A stretch of DNA of 64,000 bases from Oryzias latipes (taxonomy: Eukaryota > Chordata > Actinopteri > Beloniformes > Adrianichthyidae): contig NC_019872.2 of NCBI RefSeq assembly GCF_002234675.1, positions 13,079,950 through 13,143,949 of the forward strand, written 5' to 3'. A program made the position numbers and the translations under genes. Position 1 is the stretch's first letter. Each line of letters begins with the position of its first letter. Below the pieces are notes generated by a model. That model searched no databases and was not told the DNA's origin. It was given only the letters and a program-made list of their open reading frames with translations. Shown in pieces: positions 21,536 to 50,400 of this stretch.

Positions 21536-23570
21536 TACTTGATGTGATTTTTACAAGTCACATCAAGAATTAAACTGATATCTGTGCTGCAGTCTTTCAT
21601 AGTGACATTCTCTACTTACCCTCTTAAAAATGTCCCTTCTCATCATTCTCACATTATGTATATTCAGATTCTCAATCTCAACTTTAGCCTTTAATCTGAC
21701 CAGCTCAGTGCACACAGTCTGTGCCATTTTTGCCGGCCTCACCAAGTCCCAAATTATCTTACTGTTGGAAATGCATTTTGCAGCTGAAACAAAGGGACAC
21801 AGTGAGTCTAATAAGCCATGGCTTTAATCCGTCTTTCTCATCTCTTTGTTGTAAAGCTCTTTGACGCTGACTCGGATAAAGTATTTTTCTGCATTCTTTT
21901 ATTTGTTGCGTGGTATCAAGGTTTCAAGCCTCAATCATGTCCACAATTTTGTGGTCTTCTCAGTGAACATTTACAGTAACAAAGGATCTGCTGAGGTTTG
22001 TGAATTCGAAATTTATCTCTTTAGTTTTTGCAAAATATGTTGAGAGTTTTAACATTTTGAATGACAGATTTAGAAGAATCATTTGCAAACTATTATGAAA
22101 TTGCTGCTGGTTCTGGTTTTTGTCTTTGTGTACTGAGCGTTTTTCATTATTGCTTTAATGACTGGATCCTCGCCTTTGCTCTGTGTTGGACTCACTGCAG
22201 TGTTCAGGACTCCCTGCCATTGTGTGTTCCAGCTCTGTCCTGCCTCCTGTGAATGAGTAACTCCCATCAACTGTGGCACCTTCACATATTCTGGGCCTGT
22301 CAGCGTCTTGGTACCAGAATTTTTTGTACCTTTACCTCCTGAGTGTTTTCTGTTGCTGTTTGGACTTCGACCCTTTTTGGATTTGATCCAGTCTTTTGGC
22401 TCTGACCTCAGGAAGATTACCCGTTGCCCTAAACTTGTTTTCTGTGGATGGAAAGTCTTCAACTAATTTGGGAGATTCTAGCAGAACCCACCTTGCTTGG
22501 CCCTCTTGTTCTCCAGCAGGGTGTAGCCCTTAATACCATCTCACACTTAAGTAAATGCACACTCACCAAAATCTCACTCAAAAATACCCTTTTCGATTAA
22601 ATTTTATGTCTATTAGTGATACCAAAGAACCTTGAGCCAGAGACTTGAGGCTTGACTTGCTTCTGTATTGGGAGTGCTGTGAAATGAAACGTTTTGTTTT
22701 GTTATTTTGCCTACACACGCTGCCAATAAGTAATTCAATGAAACTTTGGGACAATAACATTTTTATTTTTACTATAACATTTAAGATGGATATTAACTAT
22801 GAAATAAATGCAAAGACATCAAACTTGATTTGGACTTGCAAAACAGAACTTGTGAACTGCTATGAGCACCTTTTGCAGCCTAATGTGTTGGTTCTTCTTT
22901 TATCCTCATCTCTTTCTTTGGATTTTTAGGCTTTTCTGTTACCCCTTATGCCTTACACCCTTTTCCTTTTCCTTGTCTTGTTCGTGCAGTGCAAAACTTT
23001 AAAAAAAGGACAAGATAGTAAAAATAACTAATTAAAAATGTTTAGCTCTTTAAATACAAAAGGAGTTTAAACAACATCAAAACACACCTTACATGTCCAG
23101 AGATCACGTAATCCTGGTTGTAACAATGAAATTTGCCCAACACAGAGGGTTTTCAGTTTCTGTTTTTTGGACAGGTCAGACATAAAAAAAGACATTTATG
23201 TGTGAAGGTTCGTAAGAATGTACATGTTGGCCTTAATCAACCTGGGCAGAGTAAAAAAACATGTGCAGGTATGTGCTTTGCTGCACGAAGAGGAAAGCTA
23301 AACCATTTAACCATGCAAATGTCCTGTATAATAGATGAGCATACTATCCGTGTGTTGGTTAAACCCCGAGGGAGGAAGAATGGAGATCACAGCAAAGGCA
23401 AAATAGTTTGCTTTACATCTTGTAGGTTTTCAGTCTGACTAATTCTTTGTTGATGGCAGGATTTTAGCAAAACTCAGCAGGTGACCAGCCAAATACCAGC
23501 CATTTGAGGAGTTGTCTGTTTTACGGTGTTGGACTCAAGAGGCAGAGGTACTCACAATCACCATGATACC

Positions 23571-26500
23571 ATGGTGACCCAACTGCTGCGACTGGCTCTT
23601 CTGTCTCTTAGTATAACTCTGATCACTTTTACAGCACAAGGTACAGGTAAGTTATGCAACTAGGCCAAATGTTGGTTGCGATCTATGTGTTTGTCTATCC
23701 GTCTGTCTGTTTTTAGTAGTGCATGTGTTCTTTAACATACTTGACAGAAGACAAATGTTTCAGTTCTGCTTGCTCTTCTCCAAAATGACAACTGAATGAG
23801 GTCAAAACTCAAGCGATATCATTTTAACTTCTGATGAGTAGAGATACTACACAGAAGACTGTTGTCTGTGGCCATGGCAACAAAGAAAGGTCAAGCTGAA
23901 AGGGTTAAGGCTCTGTGTTTATAGGTGTGGTAGAGATGGTTCTGGATGTTTGCAGATTAAAGAATGACAGCCACTCTGACAGACCCAGTGTAATCAATCT
24001 TGCCGTGCCAGCTTGTGGGTCACATGACACTTCTTTTCTTTCTCCCCTCACGGCTGCATCTGTAGATACTTTTGTGTATCCTGTCCCAACCTCAACTGTG
24101 GAGATCAACCCGAACTGGGAGGTGTTGTACAGCAACACCAGTGTGTATGGGGTGGTGACAAATAGTGTGGTTTTGAAGTGTGGTACCACCCTGCCTGATT
24201 TGTACATATGGAGCTTCACTCAGCCTGGCACTGAAGCCATAAAAGCTGTGGTCTATAACCTGGGAAGAGGACCGAAGATCCAGAAGATAGCTAAGACCCT
24301 GGGGCAACTCACGATAGTCTTGAACAGTGCAGATGTGAGCATTGATAAGCTGCTTCTGGCTGCTAACGGCTTGTTCACGTGCCAAGCCTTCTACAACATT
24401 GACGAGGACCCTAAAGTCCACTATTACTATGTTCATCTCACTGTTCAAGGTAAGCTAAAAGTCTGTGTGGACTTGCGATTTTGCAAAATGTCTGACTTCA
24501 GGGTAAAGTTCTGGTAGAATACTAGTGCAGAGGAAAATATTCTCATGTGACAGTGACCTTTTCTTTTTAATACAGTCCCAGTCAGTAAGCCCATCCTCCT
24601 AATGACTGGCACTCCAGTGGAGGGATCCAAATTGTGGATGTACTGTAATGTGACCAATGGCACTGGACCCATTCAGTACGTATGGCAACATGAGACTCAA
24701 AATAAAAACATCACCAACTTGAACCAAAACAACAGCGTTGTCCATGTGGACGAGGTGAACAGGAACTACACTGGCTGGTACCGTTGTGTGGTCAGCAATG
24801 CTGTCAACAATGAAAGCTCAGATCAAGTCTGGCTGGACATTAAATGTATGTATTTACAAATCATGTCAGATAACCGTATGACGACTTTACATTTAGGCTT
24901 GTCCTTGGAAATGTGGGCTATGTGTTTTGGTTTTAACCACATACATATTTTTTTGGTTTTTATCTGTCCATGTTCAGTCTTTTAAACAATAAATTCGTTT
25001 AACCTTCAAAGAATCATTAGAGACTGATGGCTTTTGTTTTGATAAAATCTTTTACCAAAATTTGGTACACTGACATGGTAAAAAGCCAACAGTCTTCAAG
25101 ACATTGGATTTCTTTTGATTAAGGCTTTTGTAAATTAAAGTTTTTATTAATATTATTATTATTTATTAAAAGGTTAGTTTAGTAAAGATGCATTGAAACT
25201 CCTCCTATGGATCTCATCATCTGTAGTTCATTTTCCCACTGTTGTCATAATTTTTCTTTCCTCAGTTGGTCCAGATGATGCTCACATAGACGTCTCTCTA
25301 AACACTATATCGGAGTGGCGATACACCGCTTTGGAAACAAAGAATGTTTCTTTGGTGTGTCAGGCCCAGTCCAACCCACCAAGTCAGTACCTCTGGTTCT
25401 ACAACAACTTTCAGATCAACACCGGGCCACAGCTCAGCATCACCAAAATCCTGCGAAATGACACTGGCAACTACACTTGTTTTGCCCAGAACACCCACCT
25501 AAATACCAGCTCCAACAGAACCATCAGCCTGATGGTGTACTGTGAGTGTGACCATACTGAAAATCCCTTCTTAGAATGGAAAATATCTTAAAATAAAGAA
25601 ACTCGGGTTGTACTAAAAAGATGGTTATCAAGCATTGGCACTAAAACTGTTTTAAAGATAAAATATTAGAGAGAGTTGCAAAATAGTAAAAATGTAAAAA
25701 AAAAAAAAGGCCCCAGACTACTGAAGGTTATCTTTAATCGTGTGAGATTTATATGCAGGTGTTAGTTCGACCATAGAAAATGACTTTGAAAAGGGATTCT
25801 AACTGACTTTATGATGTTTTCTGAAGCAATCCGATAGTATTTCTACTTAGTAGATCTGCTTTGGCTCATGAAGATCATGAATAAATCATTTTAAGTAATA
25901 TTTTTTAAAAGTGGCAAAGGGCTGCAATATTACAGAACAATGAAGAAAACATTTTTTCCCTCTAATCTTGGTGCAAAAAGTCATGTAAACATTTTGCATG
26001 AACTTTTGCTAAACATACTTATACTCACTACTTTCTTATGGCTTCAGATCCTCCTGATGGATCTCCCTCCTGCTCTTTGGAGCCGGCTTTGAATCACACC
26101 TCCCTCAGACTGATCTGCTCATGGTCTGGAGGATTCCCCTCACCTGCCCTCAGCTGGACTGGAAATATCACAGGAGATCAGTCTGACAAAAAACAGCCAA
26201 CAATTCCACTTAACAGCTCTGCCATTCTGCTGCCCTCTGGAGGCCTGACTCCCAACAACAGCTTGTTTACCTGTGTGGGCTCACATCCTGCTCTGAAACA
26301 GCAGACAGAGTGCAGCACACGCTCATGTGAGTAGATCGATCACAGCACAACAAAAAAGCACAACAGAAAAAGGACAGAACAAAGAATAGTTGTATATTTC
26401 CTCCTCCTTCAGATCTTCCTCCTGCAGAGCTACAGTGTTTTACCTATGTGAGCAACAACAAACAATTTCTGATGCTGTCTTGCTCCTGGGATGGAGGGAT

Positions 26501-29500
26501 TCCAAAGGCCTTGTTGTGGTGGGAGGGCCCTGGGGGACAGAAGAAAAGTGGAGAAGAAAGCTCCAATATTTTGGTTCTCAGTTTTGGCACGGCCAGGAAT
26601 GACAGAGCATACACCTGCTATGCTCAACACCCACTACTGGCTCAGCATAAAACCTGCCTTGTGACTCTAGGTCAGTGTTAGACAGAGTACTCACACTGCA
26701 GAATCACACTGTAGAATAGAAGTGCTGTACACTTGAAACAGATGGAAAACATCTACATTGCCACCTAGTGGTGAAATATATATTTTTTCTTTTTACTTTT
26801 TGTGTTTGATCAAACGGTTAAGTCAGAACTTTAAAAAAAAAACTGATGACTAAAGAGGAGGCTTGGAAGGCTGTGGAAGTTAACAATGGTTTAGGAAAAA
26901 AAGGAACGAAAACATTCAGTCAATTAAATGACATAATCTAATTGCAAACATGTCATGCTCAAAAATATTTCAGATAAAACTATACAACACTTCTAGAACG
27001 ATTAAACTGGAGTTTGATTACATACAAAAACTAAATCCGAAGTAGAAATTAACAATGACGTTTGATATTTTTACATAACAGGGAGTAAAAATGAAGCATA
27101 TAACCTTGACTTGAGTCATTTTCAAATCTAAATGTAAGAAAAACCTGTATTTATTTCTGGTTGCTCTATGTATTTAACATCCCTCTGCTTTAAACAGTCT
27201 CGGTAAGTAAGCCCATCCTCACATTGAGAGACGTTCCAGTCGAGGGATCCACAATACGGATGAGATGCAGCGTAAAAAATGGGACTGAACCGATCCAGTA
27301 CATGTGGCAGCGTCAAACCCTCAATGGAAACTTCTCCACCTTCTCAGAGGGGAACCAGAGCTTCATCTTAATGACGTATATCAACAGGAACCACACAGGG
27401 TGGTACCGCTGTGTGGTCAGCAACGCCGTCAACACCGAGAGCTCTGACCCCTTCTGGTTGGACATCAGTTGTATGTATTTATTGAGCACACCGAAGATTT
27501 TTATTTTTAGTCATTTACTTTGTTGGTTACAGAAATTCCTGACATGGTTTGGGTCTAAATCATCCAAAGAAAGATGAATCACTTTTTTCACAGCAGCTTT
27601 GTTAGTTCCTTCTCTGAGGCAGAGAATAAAAAATGATGCAAAATGATGCTGAGTGTAGTCAGCAAACATGAAGATTGTACAACTCTCCCTGGTCTGAGAG
27701 TACTCTGTCACAGGAACCTGCATATCTGGATGGAAACTGAGAAGATATTATTCAGAGCTAAATGCCTCAATGACAAAAAGAGGATTTTGAGTAAGAAAAA
27801 CAATAAAAGCTCTCCTGAAAGGATACAGGAGATTAAATTGTATCAGAAATGGTCTTACTAACCAATGAAGTTGACCTCCAATACATACGGATTTAGTAAG
27901 CATTCATGAGCCCATCTAGTAAATGACAGCATGAACTACAGTTTGTTGTCCAGAAGCACATCCAAATGCTGCACTGAAGAGAGATGTGGAGTTCATTTAG
28001 TCACTGGGAATTAAGTTTATTCTTTAAAATATAGGGGTGTAACGATTAATCAGTTTAATTGATCCATTTATGTTCCTTGAATCCAACCAGATCAATCTTT
28101 CTGATGCAAGTTGTTTAATCAAATCGATCTATTCCATTTTAAAATTGCTTCAAAATGAAATAAATCAATTATATCGACATTAGAAAATACCATTTGGATT
28201 GAAGCAGTTTATTTTACTATAACATAAAAAGGATTAAGCACATCCCAGCAGACAACACAAACGGGATGTATTCCTGATCGATTGTAAGTCAGTGAATCGG
28301 ATCAAATATGGTCGTTTGAAAATGAACCAGTACTCACTATGAATTGAATTGTATCGGCAACCACAAATTATGATGTGAATCAGATCGCTGTTAAAATGAA
28401 TCGTTACATTAATTCCTACTAAAATAGGAAAAGAAAGGAACACTGTGATTTTCTAAAAAAAAAAAGTCATGTAGGGACCTTTTGTCCAAAATCTCACCAG
28501 TCCAAGAAGCTACAAAACATTTGTAGCTTCTACAAAAATAGTAAAAGGTCTGTTTGTGTACAACAATTCACAAACACAACAATATTTTTCAGAATTTACC
28601 CTATTTTAAAGAAAAGTTCTTCTTATTAAATAAGATTCGATAAGAAATTTGCTAAAGACTTGATAAAATATGTGGTTGATAGGTTGATAAACAATGTTTT
28701 TTGTTTCCCTAGAAAAAATTTAAGAAAACAAATTTCTAATTTTCATTTTTATCTTCCTGGTGTCTCTTTTGTTTCTTCTCAGTTGGTCCAGACAATCCTC
28801 AGATAAACATCTCTCCAAACCCCATGATGGACCGGATTTACACCACTGTGGAGCTAGAGAATGAATATGTCACTCTGGAGACACAGGCTGTTTCTTTGTT
28901 GTGTCAGGCCCAGTCCAATCCACCCGGTCAATACATTTGGTTTTTCAACAACTCCCAGATCCACAACAGCTCACAGCTCACCATCCCCAAGATTCTCAGA
29001 AATCACACTGGCAACTACACCTGCTCTGCTCAAAACATCCACCTAAACACCAGCTCCAGCAGAACCATCAACCTGACTGTGTACTGTGAGTGTGACCTCC
29101 AATCGTGTTAACTGTTTTTGTGTCCCTCATGTTTTAATAGTTTTTTCAAGCGTTTTCTGCGAGGAAATGGAAGGCAAATTTCATTACTGTTATACACTTA
29201 ATTCCATTTTTTATGTTTGTTTCCATATCAGACATAATGTCAAAGATACATATCTTATGTTTTTTTGTTCTCACTGTGAAAAACTAAACAAGATTTAAGG
29301 CAAAATAAGTGAGGATATAAGATTATTGTCTTACAGCCAGTTTAGTGAAAGCTCAAACGTGCTAACTTTTGCTGTTTTGTAAAAATATTTGTTTTTCACA
29401 ATGACAGCTGCTTTAGTAGTCTGACCAATTACAGAAAAAGGTAACAGTTTTTGTAGCATCATTTCTACTTTATAAGGAAAAACTATTGTAGAATGAATGA

Positions 29501-32500
29501 AACCAACTTACAGAAAATATAGAATATCTTTAAATTATGGTAAGTGATGTTTGTATGTGTGAAACATAAAGAAAAATGCAAAGCCTTTTGCTTGGTTTTT
29601 CTGTCATGATGTTAAATATTACATGGATACCAGTGGGCAGGGGGGGAAAAAATTAATGCACTTTTTTAACTTCTTCCAGTGATGAAACCGCAAATGGATT
29701 GATTTGAGTCTATTTTAAGTTTGGAGTAATGAATGACTCTATTTCTTGATATTTTTTGCTAGCAGTGGAAAAATAAGGGCTAAACATATTAACCAGAACT
29801 AAAAAATGCTTAAAAAATGGCTTTTACTGTATGTATGTAAACTATATTTATGCCTACTCTCAACCATCATGGCCTTTTTGTTTTGCGTTGTCCCTGCAGA
29901 CCCTCCTGCAGGCTCCCCCTCTTGCTCCATGGAGCCAGCTCGAAATCACTCCTCTCTCAGACTGATCTGTTCCTGGTCCGGTGGATTCCCTTCTCCTGTT
30001 CTACACTGGAGAGGAGATCTTGTACAAAATCTGTCTGATGCAAGACAGCAAACAAATCTACTCAGCACTTCAGCCATCCTGCTGCCCTCTGGAGGAAAGA
30101 CTCTTAACACAAGCTTGTCTACCTGTGTGGGCTCACATCCTGCCCTGAAACAGCTGACAGAGTGCAGCACACGCACATGTGAGTGGAAAAGTCACACAAC
30201 AAAACATAGAGATATTGGATTGTTTACCTTTCCTTCTCTTCCAGTTATTCCTTCTGCAGAGCTGCAGTGTTTTGCCCAAGTCACTGACAACAAAAAGGAT
30301 CTGATGCTGTCCTGCTCCTGGGATGGAGGAGCTCCAAAAGCCTTCATATGGTGGGAGGGCCCCGGTGGACAAAATAAAGGAGGAGAAGAAAGCTCAAATG
30401 TCATGCTTATACGCTATGATACTGCCCACTTTGAAAAACCCTACACCTGCTTTGCTCAGCACCCACTTCTGCTCCAACCCAAGACCTGCAGACTGACTCT
30501 GGGTCAGTACCTATTCTCACATGCAGTACGACAAACAAAACAGACTAGGTTTGCGAATTAGACCTGCATGAGTGCAGAAGTCTGCAGTTCATGTAAGATT
30601 AGGAAAGAATAAGTTTTTTTCTGTAGATTAGACAAAATCGTGTGTATAAATTATACATGTAGCATTCTCATAAAGGTCTGGATACATCACAGGAAATTTT
30701 AGTGCGTCATCTGCAGCACAGCTTCAAATCAAGGCTTGGTGTGTTCCGTTTCTTTCCCTTTGACCTAAAACCAGCAGGTTATCTAAAAGGTCCAGATGCC
30801 ATCAGTAGTTTTCAAAATAAGGCTGGTTTTCCCAGTTTCCTTGTAGAAAGATTACAGTTTATTTAACTCTCTCTACACAGATGCATGTAAAAAAGGAATG
30901 CATTTATGTTGCAGCAGTGCAACAAAACTGATTTACTTGTTTGCCTTCAGTGGAGCACCTTATGGTGTTGCTACTGAAGCAGATACTGTCACACATGTAT
31001 TAACCAGAATAAGTCAGAAATGGGTTTCCTCGCCTGCAGGGTCACAGATTAATGGATTACACACATTGTAAGGTCTTACCAGTACTTTGAAGTTTTTATC
31101 TGTAGTTGAGCTGCCTGTTTAGCGCATTGTGATCAAGCATACTAGCAAATTCTGAATTCTCATGCAGTAAAAGAACAGCCAGAGGTTTTCTCAAATAAAA
31201 GTCATGTGTTTGGGACTTTTAAACATGTTATTGGTGTATTTTCTGATGAAAGAGGACATATATTAAGAAAATTAAGCTCAAAATCGCATGTCTGAGTATT
31301 TCTTTATCCAAATAGTTGGGAATCAGGAGCAGATGAAAACATGCAGTCTGAAAAAGAACATATTTGTGACAAAGAGAAAATACAATAGGCGGGACACAAG
31401 CCCCCTGCTCTGAACTTTAAGGAATAGTGAGAGGAATGGGAGGCTGGGTTGCTCTGTGCCAACGGTCCAACAAATCAGAAGTAATGAACTACTGCCGCCC
31501 TGTGGAAAGTATGTCATAGAAAACAACTCAAGTTTACAGATTTTGGCTAAAAATGGCATAATTATAATGGCATAATTAATAAAAGACCACTAGGAACATT
31601 TTTACAATAGATTAAAATATGATTGGAGTGGGTCTTTAAGTTTCAAAAAACACATTCTTATGAAATTTTAAGACTCTGATTGCCAACCTCTGATAAACCA
31701 GGAATAAAAATTGACCATAAAGTAATATCTGCTATAATTGAAAACAACAACTTTCTTACATGTGTGAATCTTTTCCAAAAACAGTCCCTGTAAGTAAACC
31801 CAACCTCCTGGTTACCTGGTTAGATGCTCCAGAGGAAGGATCCACAATGTCGATGCGCTGCAATGTGGCCACTGGAGCTGGACCCATCCAATACATGTGG
31901 CAGCGTGACACCCCCACAGGAGACTTCACATCCTTCGCAGAAGGAAACAGCATCATCATCAACAAAGTCAACCGCAGCTTCACAGGCTGGTACCGCTGTG
32001 TGGCCAGCAACTCCATCAGCAGTGAGAGCTCTGACCCTTTGAGGGTGGACATCATCTGTAAGGTTCAACTCACACATTTTCAGCAGAAAACTGTGTTGAA
32101 ATGAAAAAGTTTGTGAATTTGAGTGTTTATAGATAAATTCAGCTTATGCTTACCCAGGATTAATAATCGGTTTGCAGTTCATCTTATTTTACCTATGTTA
32201 GTTTCTTATTACACTCTCGTCAGCAGAGGGTTTGGGTCAGGAAAGTGTTCAAGAACGATTTAAATGGACATTCTTGACAGCGCATTTAGCTCAAAGTGTT
32301 CACACTGGACAAGCATGGATGGACAACTTCTTTTTTTTCTGTTTCTTCTGCTTACCAGCACATTTCTGCCACCTGCAGTTGGAAGAGGTTTGGTAAAAAT
32401 GATCAAAGCCGTGTAAATCTTGTGAATCTCGCTCCAGGCTTTTCCTTTCACAGTTCTATTCTGATACAGTATTTTGAAAGTCTAGGTGTCATATAATTCT

Positions 32501-35500
32501 GGCCAGGCACAAACTGCAATAATTAATTTCTCCTCTGTCAACAATTTTTAAATAGTTGGCACTTCCATGAATTAAAAAGGAAGCCATCCATGTGTCACTA
32601 CCTAATCTGAGTCCCCGATCAGTCAAAGTTCAACCTGGTTTAACTTTCAACACGCATTCAAGGACGCTTGTTTTGTACATAGAGCCCGAAAACGATTGTA
32701 GAAACTTGAATAGCTACACGTGAATGCGAGAGTTTTGAACACAGAAGCCCAAAACACACATTTATGTACGTTTACTTAGACTTTTCTTCAGATGTGGCTG
32801 CTTGAGGGCACCTTGCCAAGGCTGGTGTGAATGTAATTTGATGTTTTGATATTAAAAAACTTTTTTTTTTTTTTTTACTTTTGAGGAGCCATAAACTACA
32901 GATACCTTGAAGGTGGAGAACCACAGGCATTTTGATGAACTCCTGTTTTTTAGTGATTTTCTTAATTCCACCTGGGTATGAATAGACTATTTTTGGATGA
33001 AACTGAAATGAAAACTAAAAAAAGACAATACCAAAATCTCACAGATATAGTACATGACACAAATTTAATTATAACAATCTGGAGTGTTTTTGGCAAGCAC
33101 ACATCTCACTCATTTCCTAAGTGTTTGCTCTAACTTTCTCTTCAGTTGGTCCAGATGATCCTCAGATTGATGTCACTCCAAAAACTGTTTTGGAGCGAGG
33201 ATACACGGCTCTGGAAAAAGAAGCTGTTTCGCTGGTGTGTCAGGCTCAGTCTAATCCAGCAAGTCAGTACATCTGGTTCTACAACAACTCCCAGATTACC
33301 ACTGGGCCACAGCTCACCATCACCAAAATTCTGCGTGTGAACGCTGGCGACTACACCTGCTTAGCCCAGAACACTTTCCTCAAAACTCGCTCTAAAAGAG
33401 CCATCAGTCTGACTGTGTACTGTAAGTGTGACCATGACCACCAGTCATCTTGATCCGTCTAGTTTGAACCATTTTTTGGGGTAAATCAATGTACTCCAAA
33501 AAGGTATCAATTACACTTTTTGCAGACCCTCCTGATGGATCCCCCATTTGCTCCGTGGAACCAGCTTTAAATTACACCTCACTAAAACTGATCTGTTCCT
33601 GGCCTGGTGGATTTCCCTCACCTGCTCTCCAGTGGAAAGGAGATCTTGTAGATCAGCTAAATTCACAGGACAGCTCTACCATTCTGCTGCCCCCTGGAGG
33701 CCTGATTCCCAACAACAGCTTGTTTAGCTGTGTGGGCTCACATCCTGCCCTGAAACAGCAGACAGAGTGCAGCACACGCACTCGTGAGTTTTAAAACCTT
33801 ACAGTCGAAAATATTAAAGAGTGATGGAAAGAACAGAAATAATCAACCATTTACTGCTCCCCCTCCAGTTCTTCCTCCTGCAGAGCCGCTGTGTTTTGCC
33901 TACGTGACCAACAGCCAACAGCAACTGATGTTATCCTGCTCGTGGGATGGAGGGGCACCAAAGGCTTTTGTGTGGTGGGAGGGCCCTGGGGGCCAAAGCA
34001 AAGGTGGTCAAGAAAACTCCAACATCCTGGTCCTTCGTTACGGTACTGCTCGCAGTGGGGAACCCTACATCTGCTATGCTCAGCACCCACTTCTAATCCA
34101 ACCCAAGACCTGCAGACTGACTCTGGGTCAGCACTCATTCTCACAACACAAAAGCACACGTGTGATTGGTCAATCAAACTAATGAATGTATTTTTATGAG
34201 TAGAGGCCCCCGTGTTGTTGACCCAACGCAGAGTCATCTCTGTCTACGAAGGAACTGATGTGCAGCTAACCTGTAATCTGAGAGCTAACTATCTTCCTGT
34301 CAACGAAATCACCTGGTTCAACAATCGAGGTGCTGATATCCGTGACACGTCAAAGTACATGCTGCTGCGAACATCTGCATGGGCCAATCTGACCGTGAGA
34401 GACACAGACGAAACTCAAGACAGTGGAGAGTACAGGTGCTCCACTTCAAATGCTGTTGGAGGAGCAGAAATCAACGTCACTCTGGTGGTTAAAAGTAAGG
34501 CGCTTTGTTATATACCCTTTATCTAAACATATCATTCAACAAACTGATCTTTATTTGCCACCACATGGTTTTCTAAAGGTTGAAAATGACTGATGAAGTG
34601 GGACAGGCATATTGACAGGAGTTTACTTATTCTACCATAATAATGTTCCCAACAATGCTCTTCTTTTTAACTTTAATATTGAACAACAGAAAGACTGTTA
34701 AAACAAACAAACTATGCAATCAGGTAAACGTAATCCTACAGCTTTGAATGTCGTGCATGTTGGTGTCGTTCACCTTAAAAAACAATGAAGGAAAACATTT
34801 CTACAAGTGAAGAAATAAATCAAATCAGGCACGAGAACTAGCAACAAAGAAAATGTCAACAGTCTTGATGTAAACATGACTTAGGAAAGCAAACACAAAA
34901 CCTGAACCGCATGTAATATAACTAGAATTCTGTGTATGTACTACCTACAAATGGTTTGGGCTACCCACCATTATTTTTGCAATTGTATCTGTGCTGCACT
35001 CCACTCCTTATAGTTAGGGTTAATTCAAAATACTCTTTACTCATGGAAAAATGATTTAAACGCAATGCATTGTGGTTTATATTCATAAATATTGATGATA
35101 TATATGATATTGGTGATTAGTGTGGCAATTTGGACCCAACCTGGATGTAATGCTTCGTGGCAGGAGGCTAAAGCCATATGCGCTATGCTAACACAAAAGC
35201 ACCATGCCGTGGGCGGCCGTGGTGCAGCGGTAGGGTGGCCGACCCATGATCGTAATATGGCAGGTTCAATTCCCGCTTTGCACGCCCATGAGTCGAAGTG
35301 TCCTTGGGCAAGACACTGAATCCCACCTTGCCTCTGGTGGTAGGCAGGCGCCTGTGTTTGCCAGCTGAGCTGCCACCAGTGAGTGAATGTGTGTGTGACT
35401 GGGTGAATGGGTCTGTGACTGTAAAGCGCTTTGTCCTTGTAGGAAGAGAGGCGCTAAATAAGTATTTGCCATTTACCATGCATTGATTTTACTTCATTAT

Positions 35501-37249
35501 GTTTTTAATCTTTAATGTTTAATTTTTGTGTTTGGAAGTTTGGAAGAACGCTCCATTGTTGTGTCTTTTTCACCTCTATATCAGAATATCCCATGCCACC
35601 CAACGCCACCCTCATCAGGGTGATGTACAACAGTCGACAACGGCAGCAAGTTGAGGCAGAGTGGCAGGTTGAGAGTGGGGATAATGGAGGCTGGACAGGA
35701 TTTTTCCTCGAGTACCGCAAGGTGTCAGAGCGACCTGGAAAACGGGGAGGCAGCAATAGCTCACAACAGCAGGTGCAAGAGAGTGCTGCTTCCCAAGACT
35801 GGTACAGAATCATCATTCAGGATCCAGAGACCAGGAGTCATACGGTTTATGGTTTGATACCCACTGTTACCTACCAATTCCGCATCACAGCCGTTAACTA
35901 CCACACTTTTGGACATCCTTCTGCAGTAAAGATTCCAGGTACAAAACGGGCATTAGAGTGCATTAATGTGTTAAACTTTTTAACCCCAAAAATTAGAATT
36001 TTTAAAAACCAATTGATGAGTAATGTTTGCTACAAAATTGTGTTTCACAATTTCACAGAGACCACTTCTTGTGAAAACCATATTTCTGAACTGTCTGGGT
36101 TAAATAATTCAAGTAAGATAAATTAAAATGTAAATTATGGGTTGGAACTTAAAATGAATTCTGGAACTCAGTAGTCATTGGAAGTTCCCAGGGTGGTGAT
36201 ATCTCTCAGGCAATTTGGCCAACATACAGAGATTTCAAAGGTTTTTAAAGTGTATAAGGTACAACGGTAATGTGTTGCAGGGGAGCAAAAGCATGATGTG
36301 TATCCCACTGTGATTGGAGCAGCAGTGGGGGGGATGATTTTTGCAGCCATTCTGATGTCTCTCCTGCTTGTGTACATTGTCCGAAACCGCAACAACAACC
36401 CCCGTGAGTCCCAGTAACTTTTACTCCCCACTATAAAAAATCTTCTGAAACATGAGCTGGGCCAACACCCTGTGTCTCTTTCCTCAGGACTGCATGACAT
36501 GCTGTTTGGCTCGTGAGTATTAAATAACCAATCTGCATTTCCGTCTAATGCTGCGTTCACACCGCCCTAAGCAACGCGCCATGAAAAGTCGATGTTAATG
36601 CATGTTTCGGACTTCCGCGTTCAAAACTCTCATCTTTAACCCAGCTACGCAGGTTTTTACGACCGTTTTTGAGCCTCAGTTATAAACATGAGGCCATTGA
36701 ACACACATTGCCAATTAAACCAGAACGAACTTTGACCATTTAGAAGCTTGGATTTGGTTTTGAGGCATGGATTTGTTTTTTCTGGTAAACCCAGACACAG
36801 AAACAAGCCTGACAATATCTGTGTTTGTTTTTCAAATACAGATAAACCACGGCTACTTAATCCATATTTGCGTTTGCAAGGGCGCTAGCAATAAACAGAA
36901 TTGGTCCTGTTTAGTACCCAAATCATGAGATTTGCACTGCTTCGACATTTCGCACCAAGCCTCCTCCAACTGTAGGTGGCAGACATGTGATAGTAAACAA
37001 TAGAAAACGAGAAAGAAGAGGAAGCCCCTCCCTGCTTGTCAAGTGTGAACACCATGGGCTATACATGTGTTCAAGAACTTAGAGCAACTGCCCTGTGTGC
37101 ATGTGGCTTTGGTACACTGGTGCTCCCTACTTGCGAAATTGTTGAGACAATGGTCTTTTTGCGTTTCTAGGCAGCACAGCCGGTCAAGGGAGAACATCAA
37201 CTTCCCAGAGGATGAGGTGGTTGGTAGATCAGAGGGAGGAAAAGATTAA
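23571..37249 (+). CDS. vsig10l2: VSIG10L2-like multi-Ig/FN3 receptor, copy 1 (long form)
   Basis: Predicted type I membrane protein of about 1530 aa, presumably an adhesion or recognition receptor; ligand unknown. Exons: 23571-23646, 24066-24449, 24576-24845, 25266-25541, 26048-26326, 26413-26670, 27198-27470, 28783-29085, 29900-30178, 30245-30502, 31785-32057, 33146-33421, 33526-33783, 33869-34126, 34204-34494, 35585-35938, 36281-36403, 36488-36512, 37171-37249. Order: signal peptide (start MVTQLLRLALLSL), N-terminal V-like domain (VVLKC ... YIWSF ... LFTCQAF), three cassettes of four Ig domains, one membrane-proximal Ig, FN3, membrane span (VIGAAVGGMIFAAILMSLLL), short tail. Each extracellular exon is one domain in phase 1-1. 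The first in-frame ATG of the signal exon is used; an upstream ATG at 23563 runs into a stop. The name rests on architecture and on chek1 proximity. Other Ig-superfamily assignments are possible. Confidence 0.85.
24066..24449 (+). other. copy 1: N-terminal V-like Ig exon
   Basis: A 384-nt exon, the same length as its counterpart at 42541-42924. It holds the Ig pair CG ... TCQAF with YIWSF as the core tryptophan, and the strongly conserved stretch TQPGTEAIKAVVYNLG. It is the best conserved part between the two paralogues outside the gene-conversion tract, suggesting that the outermost domain is functionally constrained. Confidence 0.85.
24576..26670 (+). repeat. copy 1: Ig cassette 1 (exons B-C-D-E)
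   Basis: Four consecutive exons (270, 276, 279 and 258 nt), each one Ig domain. B has SKPILLMTG ... GWYRCVVSNAV. C has VSLVCQAQSNPPSQYLWFYN ... YTCFAQN. D has LICSWSGGFPSPALSW ... LFTCVGSHPALKQQTECS. E has LSCSWDGGIPKALLWWEGPG ... YTCYAQHPLL. D and E each carry two extra cysteines beyond the usual Ig pair. Confidence 0.85.
27198..30502 (+). repeat. copy 1: Ig cassette 2 (exons B-C-D-E)
   Basis: Second unit in the same order (273, 303, 279 and 258 nt). Exon C is 27 nt longer than in the other units, adding about nine residues before VSLLCQAQSNPP. The D-E intron (30179-30244) is only 66 bp and has no in-frame stop. This unit shares more residues with cassette 1 (for example NTSS after the C-domain, SKPIL at the start of B) than with cassette 3. 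Confidence 0.85.
28033..28414. mobile_element. TIR repeat in copy 1 intron
   Basis: Bounded by GGGTGTAACGATT and AATCGTTACA, this is an element of about 380 bp without coding capacity in the intron between B and C of cassette 2. Its right half matches 195-296. Confidence 0.55.
31245..31640 (+). mobile_element. family A TIR transposon in copy 1 intron
   Basis: It carries the blocks AGAAAATTAAGCTCAAAATC, GGAGCAGATGAAAACATGCA and ATTGGAGTGGGTCTTTAAG. It is internally deleted compared with 50164-50743 (the middle with TCCATTCTGATGCATC is missing). It lies in the intron between cassettes 2 and 3. Confidence 0.6.
31785..34126 (+). repeat. copy 1: Ig cassette 3 (exons B-C-D-E)
   Basis: Third unit (273, 276, 258 and 258 nt). 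Exon D is 21 nt shorter than in cassettes 1 and 2, exactly as in copy 2. B begins SKPNLL and C has ASQY and a basic TRSK end, features shared with the single cassette of copy 2. This is therefore the likely counterpart of the ancestral unit. Confidence 0.85.
32600..32760 (-). mobile_element. fragment of a 'TTCACACCGCCC' repeat, reverse
   Basis: CAAAGTTCAACCTGGTTTAA ... GAGAGTTTTGAACACAGAA is the reverse complement of parts of 36552-37055 and 62208-62720. Confidence 0.45.
33518..34555 (+). repeat. near-identical tract shared with 45917-46957
   Basis: About 1.04 kb covers exons D and E of cassette 3, the membrane-proximal Ig exon and the introns between them. It is nearly the same as 45917-46957, introns included. 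In the three exons only S/L (in FPSPALQ) and Q/H (in NSQQQ) differ at protein level. Similarity ends abruptly at both edges. Confidence 0.9.
35211..35478 (+). mobile_element. tRNA-derived SINE in copy 1 intron
   Basis: GGGCGGCCGTGGTGCAGCGG starts a tRNA-like head, with a B box around CAGGTTCAATTCCCG. The tail is GACTGTAAAGCGCTTTGTCC ... AAGTATTTGCCATTTACCA. It lies in the intron before the FN3 exon. Confidence 0.75.
35585..37249 (+). other. copy 1: FN3, membrane span and cytoplasmic tail exons
   Basis: FN3 exon 35585-35938 (PMPPNATLIRVMYNSRQRQQ ... VTYQFRITAVNYHTFG). Membrane exon 36281-36403 is followed by the basic stop-transfer sequence VRNRNNNP. A 25-nt micro-exon, 36488-36512, encodes HDMLFGS. 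The last exon encodes QHSRSRENINFPEDEVVG and stops at TAA 37247-37249. A tail-extending exon like that of copy 2 was not found here. Confidence 0.8.
36552..37055 (+). mobile_element. 'TTCACACCGCCC' repeat in copy 1 last intron
   Basis: It begins GCGTTCACACCGCCCTAAGC and carries CGTTCAAAACTC, TTTTTACGACCGTTTTTG and CAACTGTAGGTGG. The order is shared with 62208-62720. No coding capacity; likely a non-autonomous DNA transposon. Confidence 0.55.
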
Positions 37250-39418: not shown

Positions 39419-39690
39419 TGGTAAATGGTAAATGGCGTATTCTTGTATAGCGCCTTTCTTCCTACAAGGACAAAGCGCTTTACAGTCACAGACCCATTCA
39501 CCCAGTCACACATTCACACACTGGTGGCGGCGCCGCTGGCAAACACAGGCGCCCGCCTACCACCAGAGGCAAGGTGGGGTTCAGTGTCTTGCCCAAGGGC
39601 ACTTCGACTCATGGGCGTGCAAGGCGGGAATCGAACCTGCAATCTTACGATCATGGGTCGTCCGCCCTACCGCTGCACCACGGCCGCCCC
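39419..39690 (-). mobile_element. tRNA-derived SINE, reverse orientation
   Basis: This is the reverse complement of the SINE at 35211-35478, including GGCGGGAATCGAACCTGCA (B box) and CGGTAGGGC read on the minus strand. It is a full-length-looking copy, with the tRNA head at 39690. Confidence 0.75.
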
Positions 39691-41485: not shown

Positions 41486-44400
41486 ATGGTGGCCCATCTG
41501 CTAGGGCTGGCCTTTCTCTACCTCACCACCAGTCCCGTTACATTTGCAGCAAATGGTAAGACGTTTACCCTTTTCTACAGCATTTCAAGACAATTTGATA
41601 TTAAATCTATTGTTTTTACAAAGAGTGGTGTTTGCAATGTAATTCTCACATAGTTAATGCAACAAAAAGTGACTTAACAAAATCATATGCAGAATATAAA
41701 TGTTTTTATAAAACATTTTTAACTTCTGAGCTGACACAAGTGGGTCGATGCACAAACAATGGCTGTGTCAGAATTCCTTCTCTTCTCCCTAACTACTAAA
41801 AACTATATAGCACAGGACTATCTAGTGTCCTGGATTTTAATAGCAATTCAGACACTATGCTCACTACTTTTTTTAAACAGCAAATATGACGTCACTGATT
41901 TTCTGAGGTAAAAATCTAATAAATATGAGCATTTTACAGAGTCTATTTATAAATCTACTGTGTTCTGAAGATGAAAACTTGGATTATTTATAAAACATAA
42001 GTACATGTTTTCACATTTAAAAAATCCTTTCAAATGCAATGCATTGTGGTATTTATTCGCCAACCTAGTTAGCATCGGTGCACACTGGTTTTTCGCAGAG
42101 ACTTATGGGATATTTCTAGAGCACTAGATTTTGCAATTGTAGATTCTGACAGCCCTACAAAATGGTGAATGCACTTTGTGCTAAGTAGTGAGTAGTGAAG
42201 AAACTTGGACACAACTGATGAATTCCAAAGTTACGAGATTTTGTTTTACTCTTTAAATGTATTTAACCTTTATCTAAACAGGTTGGTCTACTAAGAACCA
42301 ATTCTCATGTTTTATGATGGTCTGGACTTATAGAGCAAGTTTGTTATGATTCAAATTATTAACATGCAGTGTATATATTCCACACACATGTGTAGTCCTT
42401 GAAACTTTTGAATATAGCAGCAAAGAATATAAAAGACAGTTCTGACTGTCTGAAACACTGGTGTAATCAATCTAACAGTGGAACATTAGCAAGTCACATG
42501 ACACCACTGTCCCCTCTCCCACTCACACACTCATCTGCAGGCATGTCAGTGTATCCTGTCCCAACGTCAGCGCTGGAGGTTAACCCCAACTGGGAGGTGG
42601 TGTACCAGGATATCAGCGTTTATGGGGTGGTGGGCAAAGCTGTGATCCTGGAGTGTGGTCCCACCGTGCCTGATATGTACATATGGAGCTTCACTCAGCC
42701 CGGCACCGAAGCCATAAAAGCTGTGGTGTATAACCTAGGTAAAGGTCCAAGGATCCAGAAGTTGGCTGAGACCCTGGGACAGATAACCATAATATCCAAC
42801 AGTGCAGCTGTGAGCATCGAAAAGCTGCCTCTCGCTGCTCATGGCTTGTTCACCTGCCAAGCCTTCTATGACATCGAGCGAGAGCCCAAAGTCTACTATT
42901 ACTATGTGCACCTTACTGTTCGAGGTAAGACCAGCTCTTTGCTTTCTTCTCTTTTGGCAAGGAAGAAGTGTGGCTGTTAGAGCTGATGTAATTTTGTAAA
43001 CCTGCTCTTTGAAACTGGGAACATCTATCACTTAGGGAAAACAGAAAACGCCTACTGGGAAGGTTCCTGGATCTTAGCTAGATTGTAGTAAAACTCTGAG
43101 TTGTCCTGGAGAGGGACAACATTATCTTTCACTGTGGAGTGGTCATGTGTGAAAGGCATAACTCAAGGAGGATTTACCTCTCTTTATGAGCCCAACAACC
43201 TTTTGGAGAATTCTTCTTGGAGTCTCTGGTCAGACGGTGCATAACCACAGAGTTATTGTATCTTAGCATTTTTGTGTAGTCCGAGTGGTGTTAATCTTGT
43301 TACCAAATGTGACCATGTGACCAAAAGAATGATCAGAAGTGCAACTAAAGTCAGGAAGCTGTGTTCAGAAGGCTAGTGATTTGTTTTGTTCTTGTGTTAT
43401 CCGATTTGTGTCCAAATATTTCCAACATTCAACCATGCATGCTCAGTAACAGCTTAACATGGTGGTGAGCTGGATAAAGAAATAGGTGAAGATGTTGCAT
43501 ACCATCTGCTGGTCAATAAACTGCAAGCTGTTGTCCTGGAAAACATAGGTTAAGACTCAGATCAGATTTAGATGTACGAGTTAGTGCTAACGAAGATAAG
43601 GATAAAAGATTTGGGATTGTATGAAGAAGTCGAAAAACTCATAATGCAATTCTCATAGAACCACGACCGAATGTACAAAAAAATCCAGATTCTGAACGTG
43701 CCAGAGCAGGCAGAGGTTGATGATGCTGACTGGGCCATTTTCCAGGTCTCTGTTGCAGTAGAAGAGGTACACAGCAAATGTCATACAGTGTTAGCCCTGG
43801 AGTCCCCAAGAAAAAATGCTTTACTTACATTTGTGTTGCCATCACGAAACCTGCAGGTCAAGCAAAGCAGACAGAAGCCCAACAGAAAGACTCCAGAACA
43901 CTTTTTATTTATTGCCCCATTGTAATACATATTTAAAACAGGGCTGAAAAATTGTTAAAAATAAAATCTGGACCTGCTTGAATTCTGCAATGTTTTTAAA
44001 ATTCACAGTACAGTATCATGGGATGTTTTTTTTTATATCTATTTTATTCTACACATTTGGACACATATTAATTATGTATCATGGCTTTTTAATTACTGAT
44101 GCACTTTTTATCCAAAAACAAATTAATTGATTACAATTTCCTATTTTGAATGACCAATTTATGCACCTTTATGCATTATAGTAGTAGGTTCAAGGGCTGT
44201 CATCTGGACTTGGTTTTTAAAGTTGAAGACATTTCACCTCTTATCCAAAAAGCTTTGTCAATTCTGAATTAGCTAGTAAAAGAGGTGGTTTATATGTGCT
44301 CGTGGGGGAGGAGTCAGGCCTGAAACTAGATGGTATTGTCAACTTAGACTACATGGTTTCGGGTCGGTAAGGGTCCATTGTCCTGAGCTGGGGGTTGGGG

Positions 44401-47400
44401 AGACAATGGCTACCCTCCCCAAACTGGTCATCTCTTTCAGCTGTTAACGACCCAGGTGAAAATGGTTCAGTTTGTTTGGGTTTTAGAACACTGTTGTAGA
44501 TGGATGGAAGAATAAACCTAAGAACACCATTCTTATTAAGAGAAGGTTTATGGCTTCTTTCACTCCTCGCTCAAACCATCCTTTCTCTCTGGCTAAAATT
44601 CGGACTTCACTATCCTCAAACAACCTCAGCTGAGGACAAAGGACAAAGTGTGTTCCAACTTTTTAGACGTTTCAGGCTCATGAGGAAAGAATGGAGGTGT
44701 TTTGGAGGAATGAACATGTGTGTCCTCTTCTCATTCAGTCCCAGTCAGTAAGCCTAACCTGCTGCTAAGTGATGCATCACCGGTGGAGGGATCCACAATG
44801 TGGATGCGCTGCATTCTGGAAAATGGGACAGAGCCAATCAAGTACATGTGGCAACATGAAACCCGCAATGGCAACATCACAGTGATTGCCCAGGGCAGCA
44901 GCAGCATCGTCAACATGACTGACGTCAGCAGGAACCACACGGGCTGGTACCGTTGTATAGCCACGAATGCTGTTAATACAGACAGCTCCAACCGCTTATG
45001 GCTGGACACCATCTGTGAGTAGTCACTAGTTATTTTTATTATTTTGAGAGTTCTTTAAAGGTCATAATGTGACCTCCACTGACCCAGAGTGAGCGTGTTC
45101 TTCCTGTCTCCACAGTTGGCCCCGACCTTCCTGAGATAAATGTGACTCCGTTCAGCATCACAGAACGAGGATACTCAGCTCTGGAAAGAGAGACTGTTTC
45201 TTTGCTGTGTCAAGCCCAGTCCAATCCAGCCAGTCAGTACGTTTGGTTCTACAACAACTCCCAGGTCTACACTGGTCCACAGTTCACCATCACCAAGATC
45301 CTCCGCATGCACACTGGCGATTATGCTTGTTTAGCCCAGAACACCTACCTGAACACCCGTTCAAAAAAAACCATCAGCCTAACCGTGTACTGTGAGTATA
45401 CGCTTGACTGACTCCCTAGCATCGCCTCTCTTTGAACCTGTCCTCATCTTCTTTCCGTCTCACTTCTGCAATCTGCAAAATGATTGAAAAAGTGAGATAA
45501 GATCTTCTTTCACTTGACCTTCTCATGAATGCACCATTTATCTCCTCTGGCTTATCTTACTCCATGCATCACATCAGTTGTAAACTTTAAACACTCCAAC
45601 ATGGCAACACGCATACACAGAACTGAAAATGGAAATGCTGCAGCCCAGTTCTTCTGTTCGGACCACAGCGAAATATGATGGGACCCCCATGCAGGTACCT
45701 AACCGTAATAATGCAGTCTTTTCAAGTGCTTATTGGTCTTTGCATGCCCCTCAGTTTTGATGTTTCTTCAAAGATAAAGTTCATTTAAGTACTTTCTCAA
45801 CTCTGATGTATGTTTTCTGGAATTTTCCAAACAAAATGTTGCCAGATAGATATTTTTTTCCAATAAGATTTCTCATCACTCCTACTTTCCATGCCACTGC
45901 GCTGTTATTTTGTCATTTTTGCAGACCCTCCTGATGGATCCCCCATTTGCTCCGTGGAACCAGCTTTAAATTACACCTCACTAAAACTGATCTGTTCCTG
46001 GCCTGGTGGATTTCCCTTGCCTGCTCTCCAGTGGAAAGGAGATCTTGTAGATCAGCTAAATTCACAGGACAGCTCTACCATTCTGCTGCCCCCTGGAGGC
46101 CTGATTCCCAACAACAGCTTGTTTAGCTGTGTGGGCTCACATCCTGCCCTGAAACAGCAGACAGAGTGCAGCACACGCACTCGTGAGTTTTAAAACCTTA
46201 CAGTCGAAAATATTAAAGAGTGATGGAAAGAACAGAAATAATCAACCATTTACTGCTCCTCCTCCAGTTCTTCCTCCTGCAGAGCCGCTGTGTTTTGCCT
46301 ACGTGACCAACAGTCAACAGCATCTGATGTTATCCTGCTCGTGGGATGGAGGGGCACCAAAGGCTTTTGTGTGGTGGGAGGGCCCTGGGGGCCAAAGCAA
46401 AGGTGGTCAAGAAAACTCCAACATCCTGGTCCTTCGTTACGGTACTGCTCGCAGTGGGGAACCCTACATCTGCTATGCTCAGCACCCACTTCTAATCCAA
46501 CCCAAGACCTGCAGACTGACTCTGGGTCAGCACTCATTCTCACAACACAAAAGCACACGTGTGATTGGTCAATCAAACTAATGAATGTCTTTTTATGAGT
46601 AGAGGCCCCCGTGTTGTTGACCCAACGCAGAGTCATCTCTGTCTACGAAGGAACTGATGTGCAGCTAACCTGTAATCTGAGAGCTAACTATCTTCCTGTC
46701 AACGAAATCACCTGGTTCAACAATCGAGGTGCTGATATCCGTGACACGTCAAAGTACATGCTGCTGCGAACATCTGCATGGGCCAATCTGACCGTGAGAG
46801 ACACAGACGAAACTCAAGACAGTGGAGAGTACAGGTGCTCCACTTCAAATGCTGTTGGAGGAGCAGAAATCAACGTCACTCTGGTGGTTAAAAGTAAGAC
46901 GGTTTTTTTTATATACCCCTTTATCTAAACATATCATTCAACAAACTGATCTTTATTTTTGCTGTTTGTCCAATTTCACTAAAAGATTAAAGTTTATTAC
47001 AAGACAGATACTGGACAAGGACTCAGTGGACCACTGCAATATAAAGGCTGAGCTTGCAGGATCTCAGGCCTCACTTGCTCTCAATTCAAGTTTATCAGTC
47101 TTGCACTGATGTTTTCTTTATAGATGAACTAGCAATTTAGGATTTCTTTAAAGTGTGAAGTACAACATAAATATAATTTATTCAACATTACCTTCCTACC
47201 CTGTTTTGGTGTGCAAAGTTTGGTGGACAGACTTTTATCATTAAATTATAAATGTTTTTAATGCAATGCTGAGATCATAGAAAATGATCTTTGATTTTCA
47301 GGCTTGTTGATTGCAGCACATAAAGGTTTTGTCCAGTACTCCAGTTTTCTTTTTTTCTGTCTTGTAGAAGAACAGGGGTAGGCATACAGTATATACACAT

Positions 47401-50400
47401 GCTTCTTTCCACTCTCTTTCAAATAATTAATCAAACTCTATTTGGCGATAATAATATTTAATGTATTCATTGTGTCGCGTGTATGTATGTTGTATGTATA
47501 ACTGCAAATCTGTCTGTTTATGATAAGGAGCAATTATAATGTAAAGAAAATAACTAAGTATTTTTATTGTCTTTTCTTTTGTTTTTACGCGTTGAGCGCG
47601 CTCTTGAAAGAACAGTGTGTGAATGTAACTTTAATTGTAATGTGATGAGTATTTTTTCAAAGTGTAAGCTACTAGTCTAAAAGAAAAACAAATTATAATC
47701 AAGTCTTAGCATTTCATAACCAAATTTTAAAAGTGCTGTTTCTCAACTGACCACTGGAGGCAGATCCGAATTCTATGACACAAACAAAAAGTAAAATTTT
47801 GCCACAAAACTCATAAATAGCTAGTTGCTTACCAAACAGTTTTCTTAATTTTATTTGGTGTTTTGTTTTAGGAGCTGGGTGGACCCATTGATCGAACAAA
47901 ACTCCCACTTTAGTTTGTCTCGCCATATCAGCCATATTTAAAAATATGCCAAACTCCTGTTCACATGCATGATGATTTCATTTAAACCATCAGAATCCTA
48001 TGAGTGATGTCAGAGCTGCCACAAATCTAGTGTATATGTGTCTACAGTTACAAAACAGAAATCCTAGATGCAAATGTTGGACCTTTTAGGAGTCTCCTTG
48101 TTTAGGATAGTGTTAGCACCTGTTAGCGTGGATCATAACCCTTTGCACCACCACTGCATGCGGCCATCATGATGCAGTAGTCGAATTACTAAGTGAAGTA
48201 TGATTCTTTAGACCAGGGGTCACCAACCCTGTTCCTCGTGGGGTACTGTCCTGCTTGTTCTGCAGCTAACCTGCTTCAGTAGAGGCACTGTTTCTGACTG
48301 ACTGAACAAACCTGATCCAGGTGAGCAGCAATTACTGAAGCAGGGTTAGCTTGGTTGGTGACCCCTGGTCTATACTGCTTAGGATAAATTATCCAAGGTA
48401 AATGTGTGTGTTTTTTTTGTTCTAAATTACACGTATTTGTTTTCATCAGAACACCCCATGCCACCCAATGCAACCCTGATCAAAGTGACATACAACAGCC
48501 GACAGAGAAACCAGGTGGAGCTGGAGTGGCAGGTGGAGAGTGAGACAAACGGAGGGTGGACAGGCTTTTCTCTCGAGCACCGCTTGGTGTCCGAGCGACC
48601 AGGAAAGGGGAGAAATAGCAATGGCTCCCTAAAGCAGGCGAAGGAGAAAGCTGCTGCCACAGACTGGTATCAAAACATCATCCAAGATCCAGATGTGAGG
48701 AGTCACACAGTACAAGGGCTGACACCGACGTTTACATACCAGTTTCGCATCATGTCTATTAACTACCGTACCGTCGGATACCCGTCTTCTGCAAAGACTC
48801 CAGGTACAGGATATAATATGGGTCGAATGTCCACAATTTATCATTTTAAGCAAAATTTTAAAAATACAAAAAACGAGGTAGTGCAGACAGTGTTATAAAA
48901 ATCTGAAGCAGGTGATTATTCAAACGTATTTTATATTTCTGCTGATTGCTTCAATGATAACGGTCTGTTTTCTCTTTTTGACCCTCCTAGGTGAACAGTT
49001 ATGTCACTCGCTCACACACGTCCCCTCACAGTAACACAGCATCCACTGGTTCCTCTTGACACCTTCTGCTTTCTTTTTTCTGACTGAACGTTTTCAATCT
49101 CCACTCACTGTGAATGAAATATCTGAAACAGCAATGAATCTGCATTGAGGGTAGGAAGTCCTGCAGAGAAGAGGGGAGTACTGCAAACCTTTAGGCACCA
49201 CAGAGCAATATCTGAATACCTGATCTGTGATGGAGTACTCAGTGCTATCCAGTTGTCATGGAAACAACATCACCAATGGGCAACAGGAAATTGATCAAAT
49301 CTTTTTAATGCTTGGAAACAATTGATCTCTTTTTAACCTACAGGCATACACAATCTAAGAGGATAAAAACTGCAGAAAAAAACTTGTGCAGTGACATTTG
49401 GAAAATCAAAAGATATGCAGCCCCTGACGAGTTTAGGGAAAGTCTGACCTGCATCATCAGTTCAAAATGGTCTAATGGCTTTCAGGCAAAAGAATTACAG
49501 TATTGCACAGATTCCCCTGTTTGACCAAGAGCTGCAACTCTTCATTAGTTTACAGTTGCAGGAAACGCTTTTCTAATATATGGGGGTTTATTTGCACTTC
49601 AGCAAGCAATTCTATTAGTGTCAACTATTTTGCAATGTGTAATTGTGATGTGTTGCAGCGGAACCACGCAGCAACATGTACCCTGCTGTGATTGGAGCAG
49701 CTATAGGCGGGATGCTCTTCGCAGCCATTCTGACGGCTCTGCTGCTCGTGTACATAATCCGCAACCGCAACAACAATCCCCGTGAGTCACAGCAACTGCT
49801 CACTATAAGAAATCCACTGAAATGCTGTGCTGTGGTATAATACTGTCTCTGTTTCCACAGGACTTCATGACATGCTGTTTGGCTCGTAAGTAACACTTTC
49901 AAAGTTGATGATGGGTAGTTTCCCACATTTACATTGATCTGCTTTGTGTTTCCAGACAGCACAGCCAATCCAGGGAAAACATCAACTTCCCCGAGGATGA
50001 GGTGGTCAGTGGCTTAGAGGGAGGAAGAGAGGACAGGGGTGGATCCTCCAGTGAAGGCAAGATGAACACTCAGACAAAATAAACACAGAAAAAGTGAAAT
50101 GCATGAAAGTTTCTTACGGGGTTCATTGCAACTTTTGAATCTTGTACAAAAATGCTTACTATTAAGACCCACTTCAAAGACAATTCTGTTTTTGTGTTTT
50201 TTTTATTACGTTCTTTTTTGGAATTTTTGTCATGTCATGGTTATATATTAAGAAAATTAAGCCTAAACTTGCTTTTCTGAGGATTTCTTTATTCAAATTG
50301 TTGTGAATCAGGAGCAGATGAGAAAATGCTGTTTAAAAAAAGCCTGTCTCAGTGAAATAGGTGCCACAGTTGGCAGGCTACAAGCTCCCTGCTCTGCTCC

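Follow-up and report, generated by a model that had tools for sequence, protein, structure and literature searches.

The window, by which we mean the whole 64,000-nucleotide stretch of Oryzias latipes DNA analysed here, contains two predicted genes in tandem on the same strand (Table 1). Exon models were predicted from open frames and phase-1 splice signals (AG/GT) rather than from transcripts, and the open frame of gene 1 spans 1528 or 1530 amino acids, depending on the choice of the first donor. Gene 1 carries three tandem four-exon B-C-D-E modules (24576-34126), with D-E about 74% identical between modules, and gene 2 carries one, a difference that is due to exon-block expansion within one gene. 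Exons D and E of the third module (33526-34126) share 28-32% protein identity and look like distant duplicates of each other. The C-D intron of the same module (33422-33525) is only 104 bases long, compared with 506, 814 and 533 bases in the other three modules.

Ten frames were submitted to Pfam. Matches above the curated cut-offs were obtained for exon B (Ig_3 in two frames, 37.1 and 40.8 bits), exon C (Ig_3, 45.7 bits), exon F (I-set, 50.8 bits) and the FN3 exon (fn3 in two frames, 33.5 and 29.8 bits), and matches for exons A (V-set, 16.1 bits), D, E and TM stayed below the cut-offs. The Ig and fn3 matches identify the products as immunoglobulin superfamily receptors with an FN3 domain. In a PDB sequence search, exon D gave weak Ig matches, the best being DCC at 0.0053, and exon A gave one match at 0.86. 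We tentatively take both genes to be VSIG10L-like or VSIG10L2-like Ig-superfamily receptors, a putative name. The layout of such receptors, with a V-like domain, several C2-type Ig domains and one transmembrane helix, resembles that of the genes described here, although gene 1 differs in its three tandem B-C-D-E modules. No domain layout for VSIG10L or VSIG10L2 to set beside these genes was found among the papers listed for VSIG10L or in the available portion of a paper on VSIG10L2 (PMC12409954).

Table 1. Predicted genes, exons and near-identical tract copies in the window.
Feature	Positions	Strand	Description
Gene 1, predicted	23571..37249	+	signal exon, V-like exon A, three B-C-D-E modules, F, FN3, TM, two tail exons
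Gene 2, predicted	41486..50082	+	signal exon, A, one B-C-D-E module, F, FN3, TM, two tail exons; 813 aa open frame
Gene 1 module 1 (exons B, C, D, E)	24576..26670	+	outside the proposed conversion; D-E 74% to tract
Gene 1 module 2 (exons B, C, D, E)	27198..30502	+	outside the proposed conversion; D-E 74% to tract
Gene 1 module 3, exons B and C	31785..33421	+	directly upstream of tract, unconverted; 69.7% / 76.2% to gene 2, dS 1.18 / 1.10
Tract copy, gene 1	33517..34556	+	exons D, E and F of module 3, introns D-E and E-F, first 62 bases of next intron; 98.75% to gene 2 copy
Gene 1 exon D, module 3	33526..33783	+	Ig-like; AG/GT phase-1 boundaries; CD80-like C2-set Pfam match below cut-off; dS 0.016 to gene 2
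Gene 1 exon E, module 3	33869..34126	+	Ig-like; Pfam matches below cut-off; dS 0.017
Gene 1 exon F	34204..34494	+	I-set Ig domain (1.7e-13); 291/291 bases same as gene 2
Patch just after exon F donor	34500..34514	+	4 of 10 substitutions and sole gap of tract
Gene 1 FN3 exon	35585..35938	+	downstream of tract, unconverted; 73.2%, dS 1.14; fn3 33.5 bits
Tract copy, gene 2	45916..46958	+	partner of 33517..34556
Gene 2 exon D	45925..46182	+	from splice boundaries and comparison with gene 1
Gene 2 exon E	46268..46525	+	from splice boundaries and comparison with gene 1
Gene 2 exon F	46603..46893	+	from splice boundaries and comparison with gene 1

Comparison of the window with itself using BLASTN revealed a single outstanding pair, 33517-34556 and 45916-46958, with 98.75% identity over 1043 aligned columns. 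The first-pass annotation had reported that exons D and E, the Ig exon F and their introns are nearly identical in the two genes, which this figure bears out; the coordinates it gave, 33518-34555 and 45917-46957, were right to one base, each edge lying one base further out. A column-by-column alignment separated the copies by 10 substitutions and one 3-base gap. Both amino-acid differences that had been named were found, S/L in exon D (33619-33620) and Q/H in exon E (33924). The description of exon F as membrane-proximal did not hold: the FN3 exon sits between F and the transmembrane exon, and F is therefore not the last domain before the membrane. The left edge of the tract lies 9 bases upstream of exon D, with 9 of the 9 bases matching, and the right edge lies inside the intron after exon F, 62 bases in for gene 1 and 65 bases in for gene 2. 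Beyond either edge, the match is lost within a few bases.

Divergence between the third module of gene 1 and gene 2 was compared for exons A, B, C, D, E, F, FN3 and TM, with the signal and tail exons left out. Within the tract, exon identity was 99.2% for D, 99.2% for E and 100% for F, with dS values of 0.016, 0.017 and 0, respectively, whereas outside the tract identity was 80.1% for A, 69.7% for B, 76.2% for C, 73.2% for FN3 and 75.8% for TM, with dS values of 0.566, 1.184, 1.098, 1.136 and 0.816. The strong differences previously noted in exons B, C and FN3 were thus reproduced, and a second computation, made alongside the intron comparison, gave 76.4% and 73.4% for the next exons beyond the tract edges. 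By the dS values outside the tract, the two tandem genes are old paralogues. Exon A has the lowest dS outside the tract. None of the 141 fourfold-degenerate sites in D-E-F differed, compared with 72 of the 160 in the five other exons.

The sliding-window check proposed in the first-pass annotation showed a sharp rise over D, E and F only: in 90-base coding windows, identity lay at 64-88% in exons A to C and at 97-100% in exons D to F, was 90% in the one window that straddled the right edge, and fell to 67-77% after it. Uniform divergence across the gene pair was ruled out by these windows. A permutation in the style of GENECONV, rather than the program itself, was likewise in line with the proposal. 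The best shared fragment scored 777, the highest value among 10,000 column shuffles being 175, and it was matched in 0 of the 10,000 shuffles, both for 2187 coding columns and for 301 fourfold sites; the shared fragment is not due to chance.

The introns inside the tract follow the exons, with 84 of 85 positions (98.8%) identical in the D-E intron and 76 of 77 (98.7%) in the E-F intron, and the piece of the intron after exon F that lies within the tract is identical at 58 of 62 positions. In the 96 bases up to the left edge, identity fell to 38.7% of 62 aligned positions (shuffled mean 45.4%, sd 4.8; 20 shuffles), and in the 100 bases past the right edge it was 51.1% of 45 aligned positions (shuffled mean 45.5%, sd 7.4; 20 shuffles). 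Because the inner introns are near-identical and the bordering introns are at the level of shuffled sequence, the homogenisation is not confined to coding sequence and its ends are sharp. Fourfold and intron positions are as completely homogenised as those that alter amino acids. This agrees with the earlier observation that similarity begins just before the D acceptor and stops abruptly. Elsewhere in the genes, about 80 intron bases before exon A (23988-24065 and 42461-42540) are still alignable between the two, unlike the introns bordering the tract, and are possibly a regulatory element. The intron after exon F also holds one of two inverted repeats (35211-35479 and 39425-39689; 91% identical), which we assume to be SINE-like.

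A DNA search of the whole genome (734 Mb in 25 contigs, with the window on contig 14) returned four places, namely the two tracts and the D-E parts of modules 1 and 2 at 74%; the tract was thus present at high identity only in these two copies, although the absence of a match in such a search is no proof of rarity. No third genomic source of the tract was found among the four places returned. Exon F had five genome matches, comprising the two tracts and three at 32-36%, and FN3 matched the gene pair only. More distant relatives compared by tblastn lie on contigs C16 (exon D, 36%) and C13 (exon A, 39%). These were considered as outgroups, judged too distant to polarise sites, and kept out of the trees described below. 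Of the three modules of gene 1, only the third is involved in the tract.

We interpret the tract as the product of interlocus (ectopic) gene conversion between old tandem paralogues on the same strand, with tracts about 12.4 kb apart, and assign this reading a probability of about 0.9. The proposal in the first-pass annotation, a recent conversion of about 1 kb between the paralogues, is well supported by dS, fourfold sites, introns and the permutation. One gene would have suffered a break within or close to exons D-F, and the matching D-E-F block of the other gene, introns included, would have served as the template for repair, so that about 1.04 kb would have been overwritten while both flanks and the gene order remained unchanged. 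Synthesis-dependent strand annealing is the usual repair route, and we infer that it acted here in a single event. The tract is collinear in the two genes, with unconverted exons on either side, and the four introns bordering the tract contained no leftover of a displaced D, E or F exon (best matches at chance level, E 0.18 for protein and 0.055 for DNA). A collinear block with old paralogous sequence on both sides, its counterpart replaced without remnant, points to interlocus gene conversion, and the left edge, at which homology among all D exons also begins, suits a homology-bounded process. Some observations count against conversion. The neighbouring exons are 70-76% identical and the bordering introns unalignable; if D-F was equally diverged before the event, the identity preceding it would have been below 80%, the level above which conversion mainly occurs according to a review (PMC3924818), and the tract is long beside most of the mean lengths given there. 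The disagreement between the tests of direction described below and the comparatively low dS of exon A also weigh against this reading. The low identity surrounding the tract is a little unusual; previous conversions of this block would account for it, although one genome cannot show them. We regard it as unlikely that the D-E-F block has been homogenised repeatedly as a shared stalk or partner-binding module, with the outer domains left free to diverge.

In the most probable of the alternatives, the old D-E-F block would have been replaced through microhomology-mediated templated copying (template switching) or by a duplicated segment, with no extended homology at either end. Introns without detectable homology at either edge are what such copying would leave, as is a right edge lying 62 bases beyond the last shared exon, inside an intron. 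However, the left edge coincides with the point where homology common to all four D exons begins, as homology-bounded conversion predicts, and the block sits in exactly the corresponding place with no remnant of the old exons found. We consider template switching improbable.

Nearly identical tracts can be mis-assembled, and one tract could in principle have been filled with the sequence or the reads of the other. The 10 substitutions and the gap between the copies speak against this, as does the absence of any N from the window, and, relative to long reads, a 1-kb tract between unique flanks is small. In a four-module alignment read by eye, with modules 1 and 2 as the reference, gene 1 seems to have changed at 33861 and 33924 and gene 2 at 33915 and 33619; site 33620 is less clear, module 2 having a third base there, and the alignment stops short of sites 34190 and beyond. 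Private changes in each copy are indicative of two real sequences rather than an assembly copy. An assembly error behind the tract is unlikely, and we rank it below template switching.

Crossing-over, by unequal exchange or a double crossover instead of a copied patch, has in its favour that tandem same-strand genes with repeated modules invite unequal exchange, as the three modules against one may illustrate. A single crossover leaves one junction, however, and here both genes return to the old level of divergence on either side of the tract; a pair of crossovers less than 1 kb apart is far less probable than a single conversion. This explanation appears very improbable. Strong selection keeping D-F alike since the genes split has a negligible probability, as selection alone is contradicted by the unchanged fourfold sites and the matching introns, the latter point having been anticipated in the first-pass annotation, and the D-E parts of modules 1 and 2 match the tract at just 74%. 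In favour of selection, modules 1 and 3 show unusual similarity at synonymous codons between mid-D and early E, and part of this region may be constrained.

Under gene conversion, the differences between the two copies would have accumulated after the event. A T-rich patch of 15 bases downstream of the exon F donor holds the gap and four of the 10 substitutions. The four lie within 11 bases, closer together than uniform placement would allow (P = 0.0007, in a test chosen after the patch was seen), and the patch may be a mutable stretch or an island that escaped conversion. In the remaining 1025 bases there are 5 events, near 0.5%, counting an adjacent double change as one event. A divergence of 0.5-1% between the copies suggests that the conversion was recent.

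The direction of transfer was assessed from distances to modules 1 and 2. The pooled synonymous difference was 0.403 for exons D and E of the tract, which is closer to the 0.457 of module 3 than to the 0.546 of gene 2, both in exons B and C. When the synonymous ratio was normalised by module 1 versus module 2, gene 1 (module 3) was favoured as donor in 0.805 of 1000 bootstraps; the nonsynonymous ratio showed no preference, with gene 1 favoured in 0.443. Exons D and E may simply evolve more slowly than B and C. In IQ-TREE trees of D and E and of B and C, module 3 and gene 2 grouped in exon C at 72, module 2 and the tract grouped in exon E at 79, and the tract pair in E grouped at 98; the D/E and B/C splits received 100, and the remaining supports were low (32-57). 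There is a weak lean, from synonymous distances only, towards gene 1 as the putative donor and gene 2 as the recipient.

A scan of six module pairs also detected a fragment running from mid-D into the start of E between modules 1 and 3 (P = 0.0002), and likewise between module 1 and gene 2, with 2 of 47 and 1 of 43 synonymous codons differing in the respective comparisons. The likeness between modules in this region involves 26048-26670, 29900-30502 and 33526-34126. In the other three unconverted module pairs, the best fragment likewise began at D codon 60 and extended into E (P = 0.062, 0.061 and 0.0086), and the D-E intron, by eye in the four-module alignment, looks much less alike between modules. 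Because the best fragment recurs in all unconverted pairs and the intron is less alike, constraint on the exon is as likely an explanation as an older exchange.

According to the available portion of a review of conversion between duplicated genes (PMC3924818), conversion occurs mainly above 80% identity and is possible below it at a low rate, and mean tract lengths are mostly estimated at 50 to several hundred bp, with one estimate above 1 kb. The present case shares with those in that portion the local near-identity, the abrupt edges, the proximity of the paralogues and the likeness of exons and introns alike; it differs in the 70-76% identity next to the tract, below the usual 80%, and in its length of about 1.04 kb, on the long side of the mean lengths. 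A further parallel is provided by the cattle CEACAM1 paralogues, clustered Ig-superfamily receptor genes whose concerted evolution by sequence exchange was found with GENECONV. As given in the accessible part of that study (PMC7042247), there were 23 events in a stretch that begins at the leader exon and ends about 1 kb beyond the N-domain exon, the lengths stated there being 14-118 bp, and the homogenisation of CEACAM1, 33 and 35 involved introns only to a minor extent, whereas in the medaka pair one long block comprises membrane-side Ig exons together with their introns. Recurrent homogenisation of D-E-F, if true, would explain conversion between genes whose neighbouring exons are only 70-76% alike, and would reverse the cattle pattern, in which, in the same part of that study (PMC7042247), the outermost N domain is reported to be kept alike. 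A literature search on gene conversion in tandem teleost immunoglobulin superfamily genes yielded, by title, nothing evidently on these genes. Exchange among clustered Ig-superfamily genes is already documented; the mechanism proposed here is ordinary and the example is clean. In work on these two genes, phylogenies or divergence dates derived from exons D-F would make the duplication look recent when it is not, and short reads mapped to the tract, or expression counts taken there, may be credited to the wrong gene of the two.

Other open frames in the window lie upstream of gene 1 on the plus strand (15494-19690), presumably a nectin-like Ig gene by its look; on the minus strand at 55697-56422, which by look we take to be a CHEK1-type kinase; and on the plus strand at 61832-63365, apparently CCP (sushi) modules, again judged by look. 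A second set of inverted repeats, of about 215 bases and 95% identical, occurs at 15854-16068 and 21324-21538, with related copies near 11.8 and 59 kb.
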